Positions 8,763 to 24,508 of a DNA stretch of 64,000 nt are shown in pieces. Each line of letters begins with the position of its first letter. Positions within the stretch are counted from its first letter, which is position 1. Source of the stretch: Planctomycetota bacterium (GTDB taxonomy: Bacteria; Planctomycetota; Phycisphaerae; Phycisphaerales; Phycisphaeraceae); the NCBI GenBank assembly GCA_024279865.1, contig JAJRRC010000052.1, positions 1-64,000 of the forward strand, written 5' to 3'. Position numbers and translations under genes: made by a program. A model generated the notes under the pieces. It was not told where the DNA came from. It saw only the letters and a program-made list of their open reading frames with translations, and searched no databases.

Positions 8763-9499
8763 TGCAACGAAACACCTTGCTTATTGTTCTTTTGGCGGTG
8801 GTGTCCTTGGCGACCTCGCTCTTAATTGGCCTGCGAGTGGCGCAAAAACAGACCCCTGCCCCCGGAAATTCCCCCGGAAATTTTGGGGGGAATGCCAAGG
8901 GGACTTCCGGGGGTTCCGGGGGTTCCGGGGGAGCCGGGGGAGCCGGGGGCTTGATGGTTGCCAAGGGCCAGCTTCCGGGGGTTCCTGTGTTGGTGCAGTT
9001 GCCTGACTTTGTTTTGACGGAGCGGTCGGGCGACGCTTTTGGCGCAGAGCAGCTTCGTGGCAAGGTTTGGGTCGCCAATTTTGTCTTCACGCGATGTGCA
9101 GGCCCGTGCCCGATGATCACCTCTCGCATGGCACAATTACAACTGGATCTACAAAACCAGCCCCATTGGGACGATGTGCGACTGGTCAGCATCAGCGTCG
9201 ACCCCGAATACGACACCCCCACGGTTCTAACGGAGCGGGCCCGCATCGCCAAGTCCGATCAAGCTCAATGGCTTTGGCTCACCGGTTCACGGGACGCGAT
9301 TTGGTTTTTGATCCGTGATGGCTTTAAATTGCCTCTCCTCGAAGGGGAACCCACCAGTGAGAGCCCGATTGTGCATAGTCAAAAGTTTGTGCTGGTAGAT
9401 CGGCAACTGCGTATCCGAGGCTATTACGAAGGCCTTGATGATGCCAGTCGTCAACAAATGAAAACGGACCTGCAACGCCTGTTGGCAGAATCGAACTAA
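8762..9499 (+). CDS. SCO1/SenC/PrrC-family copper metallochaperone
   Basis: Membrane-anchored thioredoxin-fold protein that delivers copper to the CuA site of cytochrome c oxidase. One N-terminal membrane helix (residues about 5-25) is followed by the SCO domain with the Cu-binding CAGPC (Cys112, Cys116), the SISVDPEYDTP strand and His205 (SPIVHSQKF). Residues about 32-63 are a Pro-Gly-Asn then Gly-Ser-Ala linker encoded by the repeat tract, placed between anchor and domain where length is tolerated. The ATG overlaps the permease stop codon; DUF420 follows after 7 nt. Confidence 0.93.
   Translation: MQRNTLLIVLLAVVSLATSLLIGLRVAQKQTPAPGNSPGNFGGNAKGTSGGSGGSGGAGGAGGLMVAKGQLPGVPVLVQLPDFVLTERSGDAFGAEQLRGKVWVANFVFTRCAGPCPMITSRMAQLQLDLQNQPHWDDVRLVSISVDPEYDTPTVLTERARIAKSDQAQWLWLTGSRDAIWFLIRDGFKLPLLEGEPTSESPIVHSQKFVLVDRQLRIRGYYEGLDDASRQQMKTDLQRLLAESN
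8858..8950. repeat. GC tract in the SCO1 linker (C arm then G arm)
   Basis: Two CCCCCGGAAATT units, then five G5 runs separated by TTCC or AGCC. The G strand fits the classical quadruplex pattern, and every coding unit is 9 or 12 nt, so the frame stays open. Confidence 0.95.
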
Positions 9500-16266: not shown

Positions 16267-17562
16267 TCACTTCTGTTCCCAAGGCCCCGAAAACTTGGCG
16301 GTCAAATCACCAATCGCCTGGTTCAATTGTGACGCGGGCACCACGTCCACCTGTCCCGCAGAACTGGCTACCTCGCCGGGTTGGCGTTGCACCTTGGCGA
16401 CCTGTTTATCCAATCGCTTGGCAGAAATGGTTTGGCTGGTTCCCAGGTGCTGAGCAAATTTCGCCACGCAAAATTCTTCGATCATCCAGCGTAACCGCTG
16501 GCCTTGGGGCTGTTGCTTTTGCTCATCGGTGAGTTTGAACCAGACCTGCCAATACGGATCAATGCTTTGAGCGATCTGTGAATCCTGGGCATAGTGACGA
16601 CCCTGCAATTTTTCCAACCGACAAATCATCGCCTGCAAATAACGAGGCAAATGTTCCAATCGCTCCGCAGGGATCTGAAGTAAAAAATGAGAAGAAGAAC
16701 CCCCGGAAACTTTCGAGGGCGAACCCGGGGTCGCTTCCGGGGGGCGTGAAGAAACCGGGGGAAAACTTCCGGGGGAACTTCCGGGGGCCGGGGGGGAGCT
16801 TCCGGGGGGCATGAGGCGATTACGTTGTTGAGAGATTTGTCCGACTGCCAGTTGTGCGGGCGCGGGCCAAGCTTGTTCAAGCACCACGTCTAGCTCTCGC
16901 CGAGCTTTAAAAATATTTCGTACACAAGAGCCGATCTGTTCGGTCATCTTCGCAAGCTGTCCCCATCGCTCATCAAACCTTGCCACAAAAGCTTTCTGCG
17001 TTCGCAGGTCCGTTTCGGTTCCCACAAACGTTCGATCCGCAATGAGGTCCATCAATTGACGAACGAGTTCTTCTTTAGAGCCAAACGGCGCATGGTCTAA
17101 GCAAAGTGCGCCAAACCCAGGTAGCCTGCGAATATGTTGAGCTAAGGTGTCGTGAATCTGAAGCACAAACAGTCGACGCAACCCGCCCCGCATCGCGGCC
17201 GTGGCAGCAGCTTCACTTTCAAAAAGTTGTAAGCTCGCCGACGTCCCCTCATCCACCAACGCAGGCCACGCAGGCAAATGGCGCACCTTAATTTGCATCG
17301 GCAAATCACCAAAATCCCAGCGGGTAATGTTCTGACGGGTCCAGGTGGGATGTTCCACATTGGCTAAACGCTGACCTGTTTTTTTGCTGACTTGTTCGGT
17401 CACGTCTTGTAACCCTCGCCCTTTGGCCAGAGTTCTACCACGTTGATCCACCACGCGAACATTGGGTTTGAGATGGTCAGGCAACGACTCAAAATCAAAT
17501 ACCCCGGGTTCTAACCCATAGCCTGTGATCTGCTCAAGAGCCTCACCGATTGCTTGAGCCAA
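16267..17562 (-). CDS. hrpA: HrpA C-terminal part (DUF3418), downstream of an in-frame stop
   Basis: Corresponds to the C-terminal third of HrpA (DUF3418-type region: LPDHLKPNVRVVDQRGRTLA, TRWDFGDLP, RRLFVLQ). It lies in exactly the same frame as the helicase part, separated by one TAA (17569-17571) and two codons; a TTG at 17562 could restart translation. A tract-encoded linker (PPGSSPPAPGSSPGSFPP) interrupts it near residue 250. Either HrpA is made as two polypeptides by termination-reinitiation, or the TAA is read through, or the gene is decaying or the base is an error. Confidence 0.8.
   Translation of the reverse strand: MAQAIGEALEQITGYGLEPGVFDFESLPDHLKPNVRVVDQRGRTLAKGRGLQDVTEQVSKKTGQRLANVEHPTWTRQNITRWDFGDLPMQIKVRHLPAWPALVDEGTSASLQLFESEAAATAAMRGGLRRLFVLQIHDTLAQHIRRLPGFGALCLDHAPFGSKEELVRQLMDLIADRTFVGTETDLRTQKAFVARFDERWGQLAKMTEQIGSCVRNIFKARRELDVVLEQAWPAPAQLAVGQISQQRNRLMPPGSSPPAPGSSPGSFPPVSSRPPEATPGSPSKVSGGSSSHFLLQIPAERLEHLPRYLQAMICRLEKLQGRHYAQDSQIAQSIDPYWQVWFKLTDEQKQQPQGQRLRWMIEEFCVAKFAQHLGTSQTISAKRLDKQVAKVQRQPGEVASSAGQVDVVPASQLNQAIGDLTAKFSGPWEQK
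16699..16810. repeat. GC tract in hrpA 3' part
   Basis: One C-arm unit, then four or more G-arm units (AACTTCCGGGGG) on the plus strand. One of the longest clusters in the window. Confidence 0.93.
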
Positions 17563-17568
17563 CGGCTG

Positions 17569-20172
17569 TTAACTTTTTTCCACCAAGGGAACACAACGCT
17601 GAGCCACCTCTTTAATCGGAATAAACTGACGGCGAACATTTTTAGGCATCGCACGCAACAACGCTTCAATCTTTTCTCCCAGCAAACCTGGAACCATCCG
17701 ATGCAGCCCATCGGTATCCAAATGATCCAACTCCGCAATCGGCACCCGCACGGTCACACCATCATCCACATGTCCAAACTCCGCTCGGTAACTGAGTTTG
17801 AGCCGTGAACCAAAAACCTTCGCATGGGCTGGATAAGCCTTTGAAGAAGCTGGTTGAGCGTTGGGCCTCATAAAATCGGTTAATTCCATAAAGAGAATTC
17901 GAGGCTGCTTTTCCTGGACCTTGCGTAACCACTTTTCAAACTTCGGGCCGTTGGTCATGTCTTGAGGCAAACGCTTATCAAAAAAGTCAAAACGCTGTTG
18001 CTGATCCGCCAATAAATCATGCGTCCGTTTCTGGGCCTCCATCTGTTGCACCTGGCGCAAGAGCCGTTGATTGTGTGCCATGAACGGAGCGCGACAATTA
18101 AAATCCTGTTCGACCAACGCGTGATGGATAAATAATTTTCGCGCAGCCACCACGTCCGACACATCCATCGGCTTGGTCCGACGAGGCACAATGGTCAACC
18201 CCAACAACGTGACCTTTTCATCCACCAACGCCCGCCCGCTCAATGTATCCCAACGCGGATGCAAATAACTTCGCTTGACCAAATGCGGCGCAAGCGGTTC
18301 AATCCACTGTGGACTCACCGGCGCAACCGTCCGGGCATACAAACGGGCCGTGTCCACCAATTGACCGGCCATGATCCAGGCAGGTCGCTTCTTAAACAAA
18401 ACCGAGCCGGGGAAAATAAACAACTTGTTTCCCCCTGCACCACGAAACTCTAGCCCATCCCCCGCGCACGCCAAGTGTGAAAGCAAACCACTGAGCAAGG
18501 CTCGGTGAATCGCATCAGGTTTTGCAGGTTCAGTGTTGACGTGCAACTTTTGTTCACGACACAAACGTGTTAATTGGTGATGCACTTCCTGCCATTGGCG
18601 GATATGCGCAAATGAAAGAAAATTTTGTTTGCAACATTTTCGAAACTGGTTGTTGGACAATTTGCGGGCTTGGGTCTTGATGAATTTCCAGAGATTCCAG
18701 AGCGTTAAAAAATCGGATTTTTCATCTCGAAATTGAGCATGCGCTTCGTCGGCCACTTGAGGTGCGTCGGCAGGTCGTTGGCGTGGGTCTGGCACAGACA
18801 TCGCCGCCGCGAGCGCAAGCATTTCTGTTAAGCAGCCTTCAGCAGCCGAGGCCAACAACATCCGAGCAAGTCTGGGATCAACCGGAAACGCAGCCAACTG
18901 TTCGCCGATTTTTGTTAAGACACCATCTTCATCCACCGCGCCCAATTCGTGAAGTGTTTTAAAACCTTTGCGAACAGCGCTGCCCTTGGGTGGGTCCAGA
19001 AAAGGGAACGTGGCAATGGACCCGATCTTCAATGCCTTCATCTGCAAGATGACCGATCCCAGACTGGATCGCAAAATTTCAGGGGTGGTAAACGCGTCAC
19101 GCTGCTGAAAATCTTCCTCAGCGTACAAGCGAATACAAACGCCACTGGCGACGCGGCCGCACCGGCCTTTGCGTTGATCTGCCGAGGCTTGAGAGATGGC
19201 TTCAATGGGCAAGCGTTGAACCCCTGCCCGTGAACTGAATCGACTGATGCGTGCTTGACCGGTATCGATCACATAGTGAATCCCAGGCACGGTGACCGAT
19301 GTTTCAGCGACGTTGGTTGCTAGGATGATACGACGTTTGGAGCCAGACTTGGGTTTAAAGACGCGCATTTGCCGTTCGGTGGCGAGCCTTGCAAACAGCG
19401 GAAGAATTTCCATGCCACGCGATTCAAACGCACGCAGCGCATGGACTGCTTCACCGATGTCTCGTTCGGTTGGCAAGAAGACCAGCACATCGCCAGGGCC
19501 ACACTTGGTCAGTTCCCCCAGAGCAGCGGTGATGGCTTCGGACATGAGTTCTTCATTGCGTAAGGGTCGATATCGAACTTCCACGGGATACATGCGGCCG
19601 GACACTTCAATAATCGGCGCATTGTCAAAATGTTTGCTAAACCGCACCGGGTCAATCGTCGCGGATGTCACGATAATTTTAAGGTCCGGCCGTCGGGGTA
19701 AAATCTGTTTCAAATAGCCCAGCAAAAAATCAACATTCAAACTCCGCTCATGGGCTTCATCTAAAATTAACGTGTCATACCTTCGCAACAACGGGTCGTG
19801 CTGAGACTCAGCAAGCAGGATGCCATCGGTCATCAATTTGAGCCTGGTGTGCTTGGAGGTTTCATCACCAAAGCGAACCTTGTAACCGACGGTCTGTCCC
19901 AAGGGGGTTTTGGTTTCTGAAGCAATGCGGGCGGCCAGTGTGCGGGCCGCGAGACGACGGGGCTGGGTGTGGCCGATGATCTTTTTTTGTCCGCGTCCCA
20001 GTTGCAAACAGATTTGTCCGAGCTGGGTTGATTTACCAGAACCGGTCTGGCCACAAACGATGACGACTTGGTGATCGGCAATGGTCGCCGCGATTTCCTC
20101 ACGTCGGTCATTGATCGGGAGCTTCGGGTCAATCCGAAGTTTAAACGGCAAATGAGGGCAGGTAATTTCCAC
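17569..20172 (-). CDS. hrpA: ATP-dependent RNA helicase HrpA, helicase part
   Basis: DEAH-box helicase, 867 aa to the in-frame TAA. Motif I GQTGSGKST (41-49), motif Ia TQPRRLAART, DEAH (138-141) followed by ERS, motif III VTSATID, motif V TNVAETSVTVPGI and motif VI QRKGRCGR are all intact, followed by the HA2 and OB regions. Full-length HrpA is about 1300 aa; the missing part is the next gene in the same frame. The translation ends VPLVEKS, then stop. Predicted to act on structured RNA or stalled ribosomes by family knowledge. Motor domains complete, so activity of this part alone is plausible. Confidence 0.93.
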   Translation of the reverse strand: MEITCPHLPFKLRIDPKLPINDRREEIAATIADHQVVIVCGQTGSGKSTQLGQICLQLGRGQKKIIGHTQPRRLAARTLAARIASETKTPLGQTVGYKVRFGDETSKHTRLKLMTDGILLAESQHDPLLRRYDTLILDEAHERSLNVDFLLGYLKQILPRRPDLKIIVTSATIDPVRFSKHFDNAPIIEVSGRMYPVEVRYRPLRNEELMSEAITAALGELTKCGPGDVLVFLPTERDIGEAVHALRAFESRGMEILPLFARLATERQMRVFKPKSGSKRRIILATNVAETSVTVPGIHYVIDTGQARISRFSSRAGVQRLPIEAISQASADQRKGRCGRVASGVCIRLYAEEDFQQRDAFTTPEILRSSLGSVILQMKALKIGSIATFPFLDPPKGSAVRKGFKTLHELGAVDEDGVLTKIGEQLAAFPVDPRLARMLLASAAEGCLTEMLALAAAMSVPDPRQRPADAPQVADEAHAQFRDEKSDFLTLWNLWKFIKTQARKLSNNQFRKCCKQNFLSFAHIRQWQEVHHQLTRLCREQKLHVNTEPAKPDAIHRALLSGLLSHLACAGDGLEFRGAGGNKLFIFPGSVLFKKRPAWIMAGQLVDTARLYARTVAPVSPQWIEPLAPHLVKRSYLHPRWDTLSGRALVDEKVTLLGLTIVPRRTKPMDVSDVVAARKLFIHHALVEQDFNCRAPFMAHNQRLLRQVQQMEAQKRTHDLLADQQQRFDFFDKRLPQDMTNGPKFEKWLRKVQEKQPRILFMELTDFMRPNAQPASSKAYPAHAKVFGSRLKLSYRAEFGHVDDGVTVRVPIAELDHLDTDGLHRMVPGLLGEKIEALLRAMPKNVRRQFIPIKEVAQRCVPLVEKS

Positions 20173-20208: not shown

Positions 20209-21465
20209 TCAGCTAGCAGTCGCCAAATGCAATGCGATTTTGCACGCTTGTTGAAAATCGTACAGACCCAGCATCTCATCGGTGGTGTGCGGATTGGATT
20301 GGCCAGCTCCGAGGCTGACGGTGGGGATGTCATGGGCGTTGATCCAGTTGGCATCGATTCCGCCGGTGGTGTGAGCGTAGAGCACTTCGCCGTCGACGGC
20401 CTGGACTGCCGCGGCCGCGGCGATGACACAGGGGTCTGTTTGGCTCAGTTTGTAAGATTCATAATCTTGATGGTATTGCACGTCGATGCGGCCATGCTCT
20501 TGAGCAATGTTATGAACTTGGCGGGCTGCTTTTTCAAAAGCACCAATGATTTCATCGAGAATCCGTTTGCGAAAGACCGGATCATCACTGCGAGCTTCGG
20601 CCTTGATCAAAGCCCAAGGCGTGACGACATTGGTCGCCTGCCCAGCCTCAAAAACTCCCACATTCGCACTCCCCCCGAAAATTTCAGATTTGCGATTGGC
20701 GCTGCCGGTGGAATTTTTGGTGGTACTACCGGGGGGGTTTCCGGGGGTACTTCCGGGGGTGGGGGTTCGTTTTTTGATTTTTCCTAGCCAGCCGTTGCGG
20801 TGGAGATCTGCAATGGCGAGGCTGGCGATGGTGATGGCGCTGATGCCGTCGGCAGGTCGCACGCCTGCATGAGAGGCGGTACCTTGGACGGAGATTTCCA
20901 TTCGGTAGGCTCCGGTCGCTCCGATGGTGAGTTTGGCACTGGACCCGCCGTCAAAGTTGAAGGCCATTTGAGGTTTGCCGAGCATGGCCAGATTAACGTA
21001 ACGCGCGCCGATGAGGCCGACTTCTTCCTGCACTGGAAAAAGTAACGTCAACGGCGGGTGGTCTATTTTTTGTGCCAGCAAGGTCAATGCGGTATTCAGA
21101 ACCACTGCCACGCCCGCACGGTTGTCTGCTCCTAAGCCGGTTTTGGGATCGGCTGAAACAATACGACTACCCCGTCGGACAGGTTTGGCCCCGGCACAAA
21201 TCGGCACGGTATCCAAGTGTGCCATGAACATTCGCCGTGGTGATCGACGAAATTGACCTTGGCCAGGGATTTTGACGATCAGGTTACCCACTTCGCCCCC
21301 AAGGGGACTTTTCCGGTGAGCCTGATCCGTTTTGATCGCAGAAGGGGCTAGGCCAGCGTCCAAGAGCTTCTCGCGGATCAAGGCCACAATCGCTCCTTCC
21401 TGGCCACTGAGCCCTCCAATGGATAGTAATTCTTGCACCAAATTGATCGCAGATTCATTCGTCAT
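20209..21465 (-). CDS. M20-family metallopeptidase (peptidase T-like)
   Basis: Zinc peptidase of about 418 aa. MAHLDTVP carries the first metal His and Asp, followed by GLGADNRAGVA with the bridging Asp, QEEVGLIGARYV with the catalytic Glu pair, FNFDGG, and ASHAGVRP in the dimerisation domain; HTTGGIDAN and the late NPHTTDE are also present. This pattern fits the PepT-like tripeptidase group. In the lid domain a tract-derived insertion (TPTPGSTPGNPPGS and following) precedes NVGVFEAGQATN. The start at 21465 has TATACT 8 nt upstream, suggesting a leaderless mRNA. Confidence 0.9.
   Translation of the reverse strand: MTNESAINLVQELLSIGGLSGQEGAIVALIREKLLDAGLAPSAIKTDQAHRKSPLGGEVGNLIVKIPGQGQFRRSPRRMFMAHLDTVPICAGAKPVRRGSRIVSADPKTGLGADNRAGVAVVLNTALTLLAQKIDHPPLTLLFPVQEEVGLIGARYVNLAMLGKPQMAFNFDGGSSAKLTIGATGAYRMEISVQGTASHAGVRPADGISAITIASLAIADLHRNGWLGKIKKRTPTPGSTPGNPPGSTTKNSTGSANRKSEIFGGSANVGVFEAGQATNVVTPWALIKAEARSDDPVFRKRILDEIIGAFEKAARQVHNIAQEHGRIDVQYHQDYESYKLSQTDPCVIAAAAAVQAVDGEVLYAHTTGGIDANWINAHDIPTVSLGAGQSNPHTTDEMLGLYDFQQACKIALHLATAS
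20671..20766. repeat. GC tract in the M20 peptidase gene
   Basis: CCCCCCGAAAATTTC arm, about 40 nt spacer, then three G-arm units ending ACTTCCGGGGGT. Inverted arrangement. Confidence 0.88.
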
Positions 21466-21473
21466 AACCAACC

Positions 21474-21479
21474 AGTATA
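21474..21479 (-). promoter_or_regulatory. -10 box of the M20 peptidase gene
   Basis: TATACT on the minus strand, 8 nt before the ATG at 21465. Confidence 0.4.
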
Positions 21480-21597
21480 GTTCCACATCAAAAGAGGCAA
21501 CAGGCAGACAAATTCCCCCGTTAAGGCGTTGTTGGGGATTATTCCACCATTGTTGATTGCAATTGTGTATTTTTTAATTTTTTTCTGAGAATAAGGG

Positions 21598-21625
21598 TTG
21601 ACACAATAAAAATACCCGATACTCT
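21598..21625 (+). promoter_or_regulatory. Sigma-70-type promoter of the candidate RNA
   Basis: Perfect TTGACA at 21598-21603, 16-nt spacer, TACTCT at 21620-21625. It points into a region without a convincing ORF, between two minus-strand genes. Confidence 0.6.
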
Positions 21626-21631
21626 TTTGTA

Positions 21632-21829
21632 GTAGATGACGAACAGGTGGTTCAAAAGTTTTTTTCCATCTTGATCATTAAAAAAGCGTGACGCCGAGTG
21701 TACTCCGACGTAGTAATTTGTTTTGTCGGAAGTTTCAGTTTTTGTTTGAACGGTTCACGCGACGTCATGAGGTGTGGCCGGCCGCAGAAGGGACAGGCGG
21801 GAACTTTTGTGGCCGGTCGCTTTTTTTTT
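21632..21829 (+). ncRNA. Candidate structured non-coding RNA, unknown family
   Basis: Predicted transcript of about 200 nt from the TTGACA promoter to an intrinsic terminator. Visible pairing: outer ATGACG (21636-21641) with CGTCAT (21763-21768); nested GCGTGA (21686-21691) with TCACGC (21755-21760); inside these CCGAC (21705-21709) with GTCGG (21725-21729). The 3' hairpin at 21776-21818 then leads to nine T. Read-through could extend to a second terminator at 21970-22003, giving about 370 nt. I checked for tmRNA, RNase P and 4.5S landmarks and found none; the size would suit 6S RNA, but that is speculation. Confidence 0.5.
21776..21829 (+). terminator. Intrinsic terminator of the candidate RNA
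   Basis: GGCCGGCCGCAGAAG pairs with CTTTTGTGGCCGGTC over 15 bp (four G-U), loop 13 nt, then GC and nine T. Confidence 0.8.
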
Positions 21830-21852
21830 CTCCTCGGGAAAGTAGCTTGAAG

Positions 21853-21880
21853 TTCCCCCCGGGAAGTTTTCCTTGGGGAA
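21853..21880. repeat. GC tract forming a hairpin after the RNA terminator
   Basis: GTTCCCC, CGGGAAGTTTTCCTT, GGGGAAC: the outer arms pair perfectly around a decayed copy of the repeat. A second nested structure follows: CGTTCA/TGAACG around AACCCAAAA/TTTTGGGTT (about 21880-21925). Confidence 0.75.
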
Positions 21881-21969
21881 CGTTCAACGTCTGAAACCCA
21901 AAAGGGTTTTTGGGTTAACTGAACGCATTATGGGCTGTTATTTTCGTCTTTTTTATCGCAATAGATGTT

Positions 21970-22003
21970 CCGTGTCTCATGTGGTTTGAGGCACGGTTTT
22001 TTT
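21970..22003 (+). terminator. Second plus-strand intrinsic terminator
   Basis: CCGTGTCTCA pairs with TGAGGCACGG (10 bp, one G-U), loop 7 nt, followed by seven T. It overlaps the end of the minus-strand gene that stops at 22002 but is oriented for plus-strand transcripts. Confidence 0.85.
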
Positions 22004-23219
22004 ATGGCTTTGAAGAACCGACTTGAACCAACACCACGGGATGGTTCAATCGCAATCGGTCCAACACCGGGCCGTTGCGACCGGGATGGATCTTGATGGT
22101 TAAAACATTTCCCTCAACAGGCTCGTTGATCCGAATAGCTTTCACAGCATCATGAAAATGCTGCTTCCAAATTGTTTGGCCATCGACTGATATTTCCACT
22201 TCAAAATCAACCCAGCCTCGCTTGGCAACGGGGATGGAATCCCAGTACACGGTTGCTTCGCCTGCGAATCGGCAAGCGCCCTTGGGCAAATCAAAATCCA
22301 ATTGCATCGGCGAATGCAGCAGGATCAATTGATCCTGTAAAACAGGTTGAAAAGTATGGCCAAAAACATTGCTTGGTACTTCAACCCGATGGGTTAATTG
22401 GCTTAGGGGGATGATCTTTCGGTGTTGACCTGTGAAATTGATATGGACCAGTTCGCGTAACGGCAATTGCAGAGGTTGTTTGAAATCGGTGCCATAAAGG
22501 GTCACACGATCTGCTTGAATTTCAATTTTTTCAACGCGTAACCGCGACCCATCCACCAGCCACACCATGTAACGGTTCAGGGGAGATGACGGTTCGGTAT
22601 TGGCCAGCTCGATCATGGCCACGCGATTGATTTCAATGGCCACGCCATCGGTTTGGTCTGTGGGTTCGATTTGTACTTCATCTCGTCCGACCGAGGTGAT
22701 AAAACCCCGCATTTGATCGCCGTTGGTAAATCGCAGTCGGTCGGATTGATTATTTTCACTGGGGTTTGCCTCGGCAAACCGTATGCGTCGCACTTGGTCC
22801 AATGGCATTTGGAGCAAGCCGACGATGGGGTTGGACCATGGCACGATTTCAGATTTAATGGGTGAGGATTCATCCCAACGGCCGACCAATCGCTGGCCGT
22901 CGACCCATTCAAGCCACGCATGTTGGCGCGTCGGCAAGGCAACTGAAGGTGATCGCCCAGCCAATGATCGAATTTGCAAAAGACGCTGAAGGGACTTGCG
23001 ACGCAACACCCGCTGAGCATCAAAAAATACCAGTGTGTCGCGGCTGAGGCTTTGCAGCGTAATCGGTTGCTCGGTCAAATTTTCATCAACCAAAATCGCA
23101 GAGACCGCTCCCCACGAAGACGAAAGATCGACACACAAATTCAGACAAAGACCCAAGCAGAGGCTAAACCCAAGCGTTCGTTGAATTGGCCGTTGCGTTG
23201 ACATGAGATTCCTTTTCAT
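22002..23219 (-). CDS. Secreted protein with NPCBM-like carbohydrate-binding domain
   Basis: About 405 aa. N-terminal signal peptide (LGFSLCLGLCLNLCVDL, residues about 16-32), a middle region of beta-strand-rich sequence with small SH3-like strands (NGDQMRGFITSVGRDEVQIE, DGSRLRVEKIEIQADRVTLYG), and a C-terminal NPCBM-type jelly roll (CRFAGEATVYWDS, GWVDFEVEISVDGQ, IRINEPVEGNVLTIKI, HPGRNGPVLDRL). Last gene of the four-gene minus-strand operon; its start overlaps the preceding stop by 4 nt. Likely binds cell-surface or environmental glycans (family inference). Confidence 0.75.
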   Translation of the reverse strand: MKRNLMSTQRPIQRTLGFSLCLGLCLNLCVDLSSSWGAVSAILVDENLTEQPITLQSLSRDTLVFFDAQRVLRRKSLQRLLQIRSLAGRSPSVALPTRQHAWLEWVDGQRLVGRWDESSPIKSEIVPWSNPIVGLLQMPLDQVRRIRFAEANPSENNQSDRLRFTNGDQMRGFITSVGRDEVQIEPTDQTDGVAIEINRVAMIELANTEPSSPLNRYMVWLVDGSRLRVEKIEIQADRVTLYGTDFKQPLQLPLRELVHINFTGQHRKIIPLSQLTHRVEVPSNVFGHTFQPVLQDQLILLHSPMQLDFDLPKGACRFAGEATVYWDSIPVAKRGWVDFEVEISVDGQTIWKQHFHDAVKAIRINEPVEGNVLTIKIHPGRNGPVLDRLRLNHPVVLVQVGSSKP

Positions 23220-24508
23220 CGTTGAAAGATCGGCAATAAACGGCTCGGCACTTGCAAAACCAACAACGCCATGGCTGAAGCATAGGCATTGCCATAGCTC
23301 GATTCCCAGTGGCCGTCGGCTTTTTGTTGTTTCAATAATTCTTCACGGATGACCGGATACCACTGTTCCCAATCTTTTCCGCCGGCAAGGAACATCGCTT
23401 GGGCGGCATAGTAGTGGCCATAGAAATAGTGGCCGATGCTGCGTTTGGTCACCGCGGGGCGTTGGCGTTGTAAATAGGCGATCCCTTTTTTTAGTGCATC
23501 ATCTTGATAGATGCCCGCGTAGTAGAGGCTCGCCACGCCTGCGGCAGATCGGGGAAAGGCCGAGCCCCCTGTTCCGAGCATGTATCGGAATCCGCCGTCG
23601 GAAAGGTTTTGGCATTGACGGACGTACATGATCGCTCGGTCGATGGTTTCTTTGGGAACGTGGATGCCTGCATTGCGTGCTGATCGCAGGGCCATGATTT
23701 GGCAGATGGTGACGGAAATATCTGCTTCAAAGGGGACGGGTTGATACCGCCAACCGCCTTCACGGTTTTGGTTGTCGACGATGAGACGGGTGGCTTTGAT
23801 GAGTGCTTCGCGTGTTCGGGGGCTGGGGGTCATGCCATAGATTTCACCGAGGAAGAGGGTCGCAAATCCGTGGCCATACATTGGGCCATGGGATGTTTCT
23901 GCTGCGACGAGGCCAGTTTCCTGGACATGGTTTAACACGAAGTCCAAGCCCTTTTGCACATGACGGCCATACGCGCCGCGGCCGGGTAAATGCCCATCAG
24001 CCATAAACGCCAAGCAGGCCAGTGCGGTGATCCCGACGTGCTTGCCGTAACGTCCGCCGCCGTAGCTTCCGTCGGGTGCTTGGGCTTGGGATAAAAAGGC
24101 GAGGCCGCGTTCAATCCCTTGCCGCGACTGAGGCGTAAACTCCACAAACCCCCCCGGAAGCCCCCCCGCCCCCGGAAGTGTCCCCGGAACCACCCCCGGA
24201 AGTTTCAGAACCGAATTTTTTGGTTCTTCTGATTGTTCGGGCGTTTGCCCCCAGGCTGGCGTTATGCCGAAGGTAAGACCGGGGGTAAGACCGGGGGTAA
24301 GACCGGGGGTTCCGGGGGCGGGAGGGCTTCCGGGGGGGGTGATGTACAAACAGAGGATGCACAGAATTTGTATCCAAGGTCCAGTCAAACCAAAACGCCT
24401 CCCCGACGCGCACGCAGTTTGCGTGCGGCTATTTTTCACACGATCAAACTTCAAGCAATCTTCTCTTACTGATCGCTGATCGCTGATCGCTAATCGCTTA
24501 AGAATCAT
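23216..24508 (-). CDS. Prenyltransferase/squalene-oxidase repeat protein, exported
   Basis: The alpha/alpha-toroid repeats (GIERGLAFLSQAQAPDGSYGG, KGLDFVLNHVQETGL, KATRLIVDNQNREGGWRY, RAIMYVRQCQNLSDGGFRY, KGIAYLQRQRP, with breaks between) are of a kind common in planctomycete secreted proteins, and no catalytic DxDD is seen. The N-terminus is odd: the ATG at 24508 overlaps the previous stop (ATGA), but the first 40 residues are the read-out of a heptad repeat and a REP palindrome (SRTQTACASGRR). A TTG at 24388, preceded by GGGGAGG, would start directly before the hydrophobic leader IQILCILCLYI. Two repeat tracts follow the leader. Confidence 0.8.
   Translation of the reverse strand: MILKRLAISDQRSVREDCLKFDRVKNSRTQTACASGRRFGLTGPWIQILCILCLYITPPGSPPAPGTPGLTPGLTPGLTFGITPAWGQTPEQSEEPKNSVLKLPGVVPGTLPGAGGLPGGFVEFTPQSRQGIERGLAFLSQAQAPDGSYGGGRYGKHVGITALACLAFMADGHLPGRGAYGRHVQKGLDFVLNHVQETGLVAAETSHGPMYGHGFATLFLGEIYGMTPSPRTREALIKATRLIVDNQNREGGWRYQPVPFEADISVTICQIMALRSARNAGIHVPKETIDRAIMYVRQCQNLSDGGFRYMLGTGGSAFPRSAAGVASLYYAGIYQDDALKKGIAYLQRQRPAVTKRSIGHYFYGHYYAAQAMFLAGGKDWEQWYPVIREELLKQQKADGHWESSYGNAYASAMALLVLQVPSRLLPIFQR
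24149..24340. repeat. Paired GC tracts in the 23.2-24.5 kb gene
   Basis: On the plus strand a C arm at 24149-24205 (four units) and a G arm at 24279-24340 (three GTAAGACCGGGGG units plus TTCCGGGGGCGGG) with 73 nt between. They encode PGLTPGLTPGL and LPGVVPGTLPGAGGLPGG. Confidence 0.93.
24401..24445 (-). repeat. REP-like palindrome
   Basis: GCGCACGCAGTTTGCGTGCG palindrome followed by GCTATTTTTCAC; minus-strand orientation relative to the copy at 45.2 kb. Confidence 0.75.
24458..24500. repeat. Heptanucleotide tandem repeat
   Basis: TCTTCTCTTAC leader, then TGATCGC three times and TAATCGC. Overlaps the first codons of the downstream gene. Confidence 0.8.

Follow-up and report, generated by a model that had tools for sequence, protein, structure and literature searches.

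Positions 21598 to 22003 of the window (the whole stretch of DNA analyzed, 64,000 nt) carry a promoter and two terminators on the plus strand, while the open reading frames on either side (20209-21486 and 22002-23219) both lie on the minus strand. This raises the question of whether the locus encodes a new structured RNA, as had been proposed in the preliminary description, and, if so, how such an RNA would act. Conservation confirms the unit itself, and sequence comparison supports its reading as a candidate new structured RNA: homologues were found in a second genus, the differences between them include compensatory changes, no Rfam family matches the locus, and the reading frame that crosses it is not conserved.

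Layout of the locus

The promoter noted earlier was recovered, with a -35 box (TTGACA) at 21598-21603, a 16-nt spacer and a -10 box (TACTCT) at 21620-21625, all read from the sequence and kept together with the spacer in five genomes (Table 1). It had fallen under the threshold of the promoter scanner because TACTCT matches only three of the six positions of the -10 consensus. Transcription is predicted to start at 21632, 7-9 nt past the -10 box. The first terminator, T1, lies where it had been placed, with its nine T (21821-21829) ending at 21829, but its stem, formed by arms at 21774-21790 and 21804-21820, holds 17 bp, four of them G-U, and not the 15 bp first reported. T1 was missing from the terminator scanner's list because its loop of 13 nt is longer than the 8 that the scanner allows. 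The second terminator, T2, could be read directly as a 10-bp hairpin (21970-21996) followed by seven T (21997-22003), in agreement with the earlier account. The T run of T2 shares positions with the stop codon of the minus-strand gene that faces it, which would fit a barrier against antisense read-through. Against dinucleotide shuffles, the long form ending at T2 folds with a z of -3.35.

Table 1. Features of the candidate RNA locus, in positions of the window
Feature	Positions	Strand	Evidence
Promoter TTGACA-16-TACTCTTTT with conserved spacer block AAAAATACCCGA	21598-21628	+	Block found ahead of the RNA once in each of the five genomes
Candidate small RNA, short form (~198 nt)	21632-21829	+	Promoter and 3' terminator kept in two genera; fold z -2.9 against dinucleotide shuffles
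Closing stem P1 (21686-21695 with 21752-21760) and enclosed part	21686-21760	+	Compensatory changes; alifold z -7.1
Inner hairpin P2, U-rich loop	21705-21729	+	In three g31 species, a 10-bp counterpart (loop GUUUUUG) that shows compensatory changes
Near-invariant linker GACGUCAUGAGGU	21761-21773	+	From ACGU on, one substitution (in G074) among five genomes
P4, 17-bp hairpin closing a 13-nt purine-rich loop (GGACAGGCGGGAA) and followed by nine T (terminator T1)	21774-21829	+	17 of 17 pairs unchanged in five genomes
Second structured stretch, up to and including terminator T2	21830-22003	+	Fold z -2.7; same layout in g31

The gene at 20209-21486 encodes an M42/M20-type peptidase, and no Pfam match was found for the product of 22002-23219. 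Two further observations concern the neighborhood. An HrpA-type helicase (DEAH, HA2, OB fold, DUF3418) at 16267-20172 on the minus strand is split into two adjacent open reading frames in the middle of DUF3418 (profile positions 2-221 in one and 232-481 in the other), as the result of a frameshift, a sequencing error or a real split. Runs of Pro-Gly-x repeats (PGLTPGLTPGLT, TPGSTPGNPPGS) lie inside otherwise ordinary proteins (20680-20790, 24269-24326, 8906-8948 and similar); they are matched by GC-rich repeats in the DNA, CCGGGG runs of a similar kind occur close to one RNA copy of the genus g31 (L002, ~1335-1360), and they may represent a spreading in-frame minisatellite.

Distribution and conservation within the Phycisphaeraceae

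The search set comprised 51 genomes of the same family, among them the window's own genome and four of genus g31. Whole-genome blastn recovered the 3' module (the linker ACGUCAUGAGG plus P4, ~65 nt) in five genomes, the window's own and the four of g31, once each and at E values of 1e-26 to 1e-30, and nothing beyond chance-length short matches at E ~0.05 in the other 46. The pattern TTGACA-N10-14-ACCSGWTACTCTTTT occurred exactly once in each of the same five genomes and not at all in the reversed control, and always lay 200-290 nt ahead of the end of the conserved hairpin; the comparison rests on five sequences, from genomes that are partly MAG-derived. A pattern scan of GTDB returned the g31 members Planctomycetes bacterium syqfu (CP087563.1, a complete genome), UBA7800, NAT22 and NORP295, two of which carry the label Phycisphaeraceae. 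With a covariance model of the 3' module, run across the order (400 genomes) and, under laxer filters, across the family (36 genomes), the five known copies were the only strong hits among the matches listed, and it is by this measure and by blastn that the RNA is absent from other genera. Weaker matches of the model across the order proved on inspection to be generic terminators or coding DNA. Two pattern matches outside the phylum (Nitrospirales and Cupriavidus) had no hairpin and were attributed to chance, and a weak promoter-like match in the genome G014 had no conserved hairpin downstream. Phage and plasmid records gave no blastn match, and viral contigs no match to the pattern.

The RNA has different neighbors in the two genera. 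In all four g31 species the RNA and a yggS-like gene are divergently oriented, and a mutM-like gene lies on the far side of the latter (both named from translated sequences and not by family search), and the downstream genes vary. This difference in flanking genes, together with the opposite orientation to both neighbors in the window, bears out the earlier statement that the unit is not their leader; it indicates a freestanding gene, neither leader nor trailer, and argues for a role in trans.

Comparison of the five copies revealed a dedicated promoter that is kept, a 5' and middle part whose fold is constrained and a 3' terminator hairpin that is frozen in sequence. The g31 copies carry an extra 5' domain of ~100 nt (GCCGACGGG...CCGTCGG, present in all four species: L002/L014, L006/L013, L004/L011 and L005/L012), which is missing from the window copy, is under structural constraint (alifold z -5.4, 0 of 300 shuffles) and may reflect the gain or loss of a domain inside a single RNA family. 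The 5' parts of both genera have an 8-mer, ACGAACAG, in common, and this could be chance. In the middle region the sequence has diverged while the pairs are kept by two-sided changes. The stem P1 closes as GCGUGA.../...UCACGC, its fifth pair is G-C, C-G or U-G depending on the genome, and the inner pairs of its region are G-U, C-G and C-G as against C-G, U-A and G-C. The alifold z of -7.1 for this region (five sequences, 0 of 300 column shuffles) comes from a method-sensitive alignment, in which MAFFT misaligns the region and the signal vanishes once G074 is left out, and the pairs read by hand therefore carry the covariation argument. The 3' module, by comparison, is 95.6-97.1% identical between genera, while in the same genomes 6S RNA is 77-80% and tmRNA 76-77% identical. 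Within P4, stem and loop show roughly the same invariance, the loop, GGA(C)AGGCGGGAA, differing between genera by a one-base indel. In these sequences a terminator hairpin is the most conserved part of the RNA, which is unusual; since termination alone needs only pairing, the frozen P4 calls for an explanation beyond it.

Base pairing, protein binding and a long form as possible readings

The reading we favor, tentatively, is that the locus encodes a small regulatory RNA of the Phycisphaeraceae from a freestanding gene, and that this RNA acts in trans and independently of Hfq, with the 3' module as contact site and the 5' part as scaffold. A promoter and an intrinsic terminator of its own, an intergenic position (all inferred from the sequence) and neighbors that are not conserved are what would be expected of a trans-encoded sRNA. 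The transcript would be ~200 nt long (about 280 nt in g31) and end mostly at T1, with T2 backing it up or closing a longer or tandem form. Hfq, on which an Hfq-dependent sRNA would rely, was detected in none of the 51 family genomes, with positive controls, and the RNA would therefore act without it. Contact would be made by the invariant linker and the purine-rich terminator loop, most likely through pairing with C/U-rich stretches of mRNAs, and the variable upstream part would act as the scaffold.

There is a precedent for such use of a terminator loop in RepG of Helicobacter pylori, likewise a freestanding intergenic sRNA, in which the loop of the terminator hairpin is the pairing site (PMC8295292). 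The C/U-rich loop of RepG has a G-repeat as its pairing partner, whereas the loop here is G/A-rich, and we regard RepG as a mechanistic analogue with no sequence relation expected; the analogy bears on a possible mode of action and not on kinship. RepG is also shorter than the Phycisphaeraceae RNA. Complements of the linker were not enriched in the genomes, with counts like those of the reversed control, and marked no shared gene start. A further point against pairing is that the 17-bp stem is conserved as strictly as the loop, beyond what pairing by the loop requires; recognition of the duplex by a protein would account for this better.

It is quite possible, though we lean against it, that the real unit is a long form of ~370-420 nt, in which T1 is leaky or controlled and the stretch between T1 and T2 is a second RNA or a 3' domain with a function of its own. 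In g31 this stretch holds seven pairs with two-sided changes and folds with a z of -7.5 (still -5.9 without the T2 hairpin); on these compensatory changes, read-through into a longer RNA, or a second RNA in tandem, is likely. The order of hairpin, hairpin and terminator is found in the window as well, and a CCUC shortly past the T run could pair with GAGG in the linker in five of five copies. However, T1 has the marks of a very strong terminator (a stem of 17 bp and T7-T9), the T1-T2 sequences are without similarity between genera, and no promoter was recognized between T1 and T2. A long form would be compatible with base-pairing and protein-binding mechanisms alike.

The equal conservation of stem and loop keeps a protein-binding role a strong rival, although we consider it somewhat unlikely that the RNA works in this way rather than by pairing. 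The P4 duplex and loop would then be the binding site, and sequestration of CsrA would be one version. CsrA is present in 51 of 51 family genomes, usually in two copies, and the P4 loop region holds one AGGGA and one CGGGA; sponging of CsrA by the RNA is possible. CsrB-type sponges are expected to carry far more GGA and ANGGA motifs. The present RNA resembles the CsrB, CsrC and RsmZ type in having GGA motifs in a hairpin loop and CsrA in the same genomes, but its motifs are too few, with 3-7 GGA and one ANGGA per RNA and not the many ANGGA in loops of a sponge, and the presence of CsrA, in 51 genomes against five for the RNA, does not track it. We think it rather improbable that the locus represents a large structured RNA of a new, multi-domain class, ~370-420 nt long with two terminator-ended modules, in which the frozen duplex would be read by a dedicated protein or form part of an RNA-protein machine, and which would not be an ordinary antisense regulator.

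Other explanations, known RNA families and significance

Conservation of P4 as DNA, as an attachment or binding site, would account for both arms being frozen in sequence, but it is very unlikely, given that P4 is single-copy, always lies 200-290 nt downstream of the same promoter with T7-T9 next on the same strand, and is flanked by RNA that shows compensatory changes. A small-protein gene is refuted as the main explanation and retains hardly any probability: the 68-aa frame at 21688-21894 is open, but it passes through the terminator and is absent from the relatives, and a single-base indel, in a P4 loop that otherwise agrees between genera, puts any frame across the module out of register. 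The alignment called for at the outset thus returned compensatory changes and no conservation of this frame.

The covariance check proposed alongside it was run with Rfam 15 on the window and the homologues, and only tRNAs scored above the gathering threshold. The suggestion that the length would allow 6S RNA did not hold up, and we give this identity next to no weight: the RNA is freestanding and its length of near 200 nt is similar, but a search of 21450-22100 with RF00013 gave nothing at E values of up to 5, the locus folds as several separate hairpins and not as one long rod with a central bubble, and this genome carries its 6S RNA gene at another site (G000:C95:37896-38080, at 41.4 bits narrowly below the cut-off of 46.4; above the cut-off in three of four g31 relatives). 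The tmRNA of this genome likewise lies elsewhere (G000:C33:2748-3137), and RF00023 had no match in the window by covariance model or ARAGORN, so the locus is neither 6S RNA nor tmRNA. Landmarks of tmRNA, RNase P and SRP RNA had been reported absent, and Rfam 15 matched none of the three at the locus; an essential RNA such as RNase P or SRP RNA would, moreover, not sit in two genera only.

The best Rfam match on the strand, at chance level, was AbcR/ar15 of the Alphaproteobacteria (RF02345; 16.4 bits, E 0.95), far below the cut-off of 40. AbcR/ar15 sRNAs are Hfq-linked, and Hfq was not detected in the Phycisphaeraceae genomes. The Rhodopirellula-1 motif, also a planctomycete candidate RNA, is listed for Proteobacteria and Planctomycetes as possibly cis-regulatory, and is given no Rfam number in the table of that paper (Weinberg 2010; PMC2864571); on that description, the freestanding gene reported here would differ from it.

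We came across no publication on small RNAs of the Phycisphaerae in our literature search. A terminator hairpin that is more conserved than tmRNA and shows no compensatory change is unusual, and the presence of CsrA with Hfq undetected in the Phycisphaeraceae bears on how sRNAs would act in this family. The locus offers a concrete, alignable candidate sRNA gene with a defined module for mutation.
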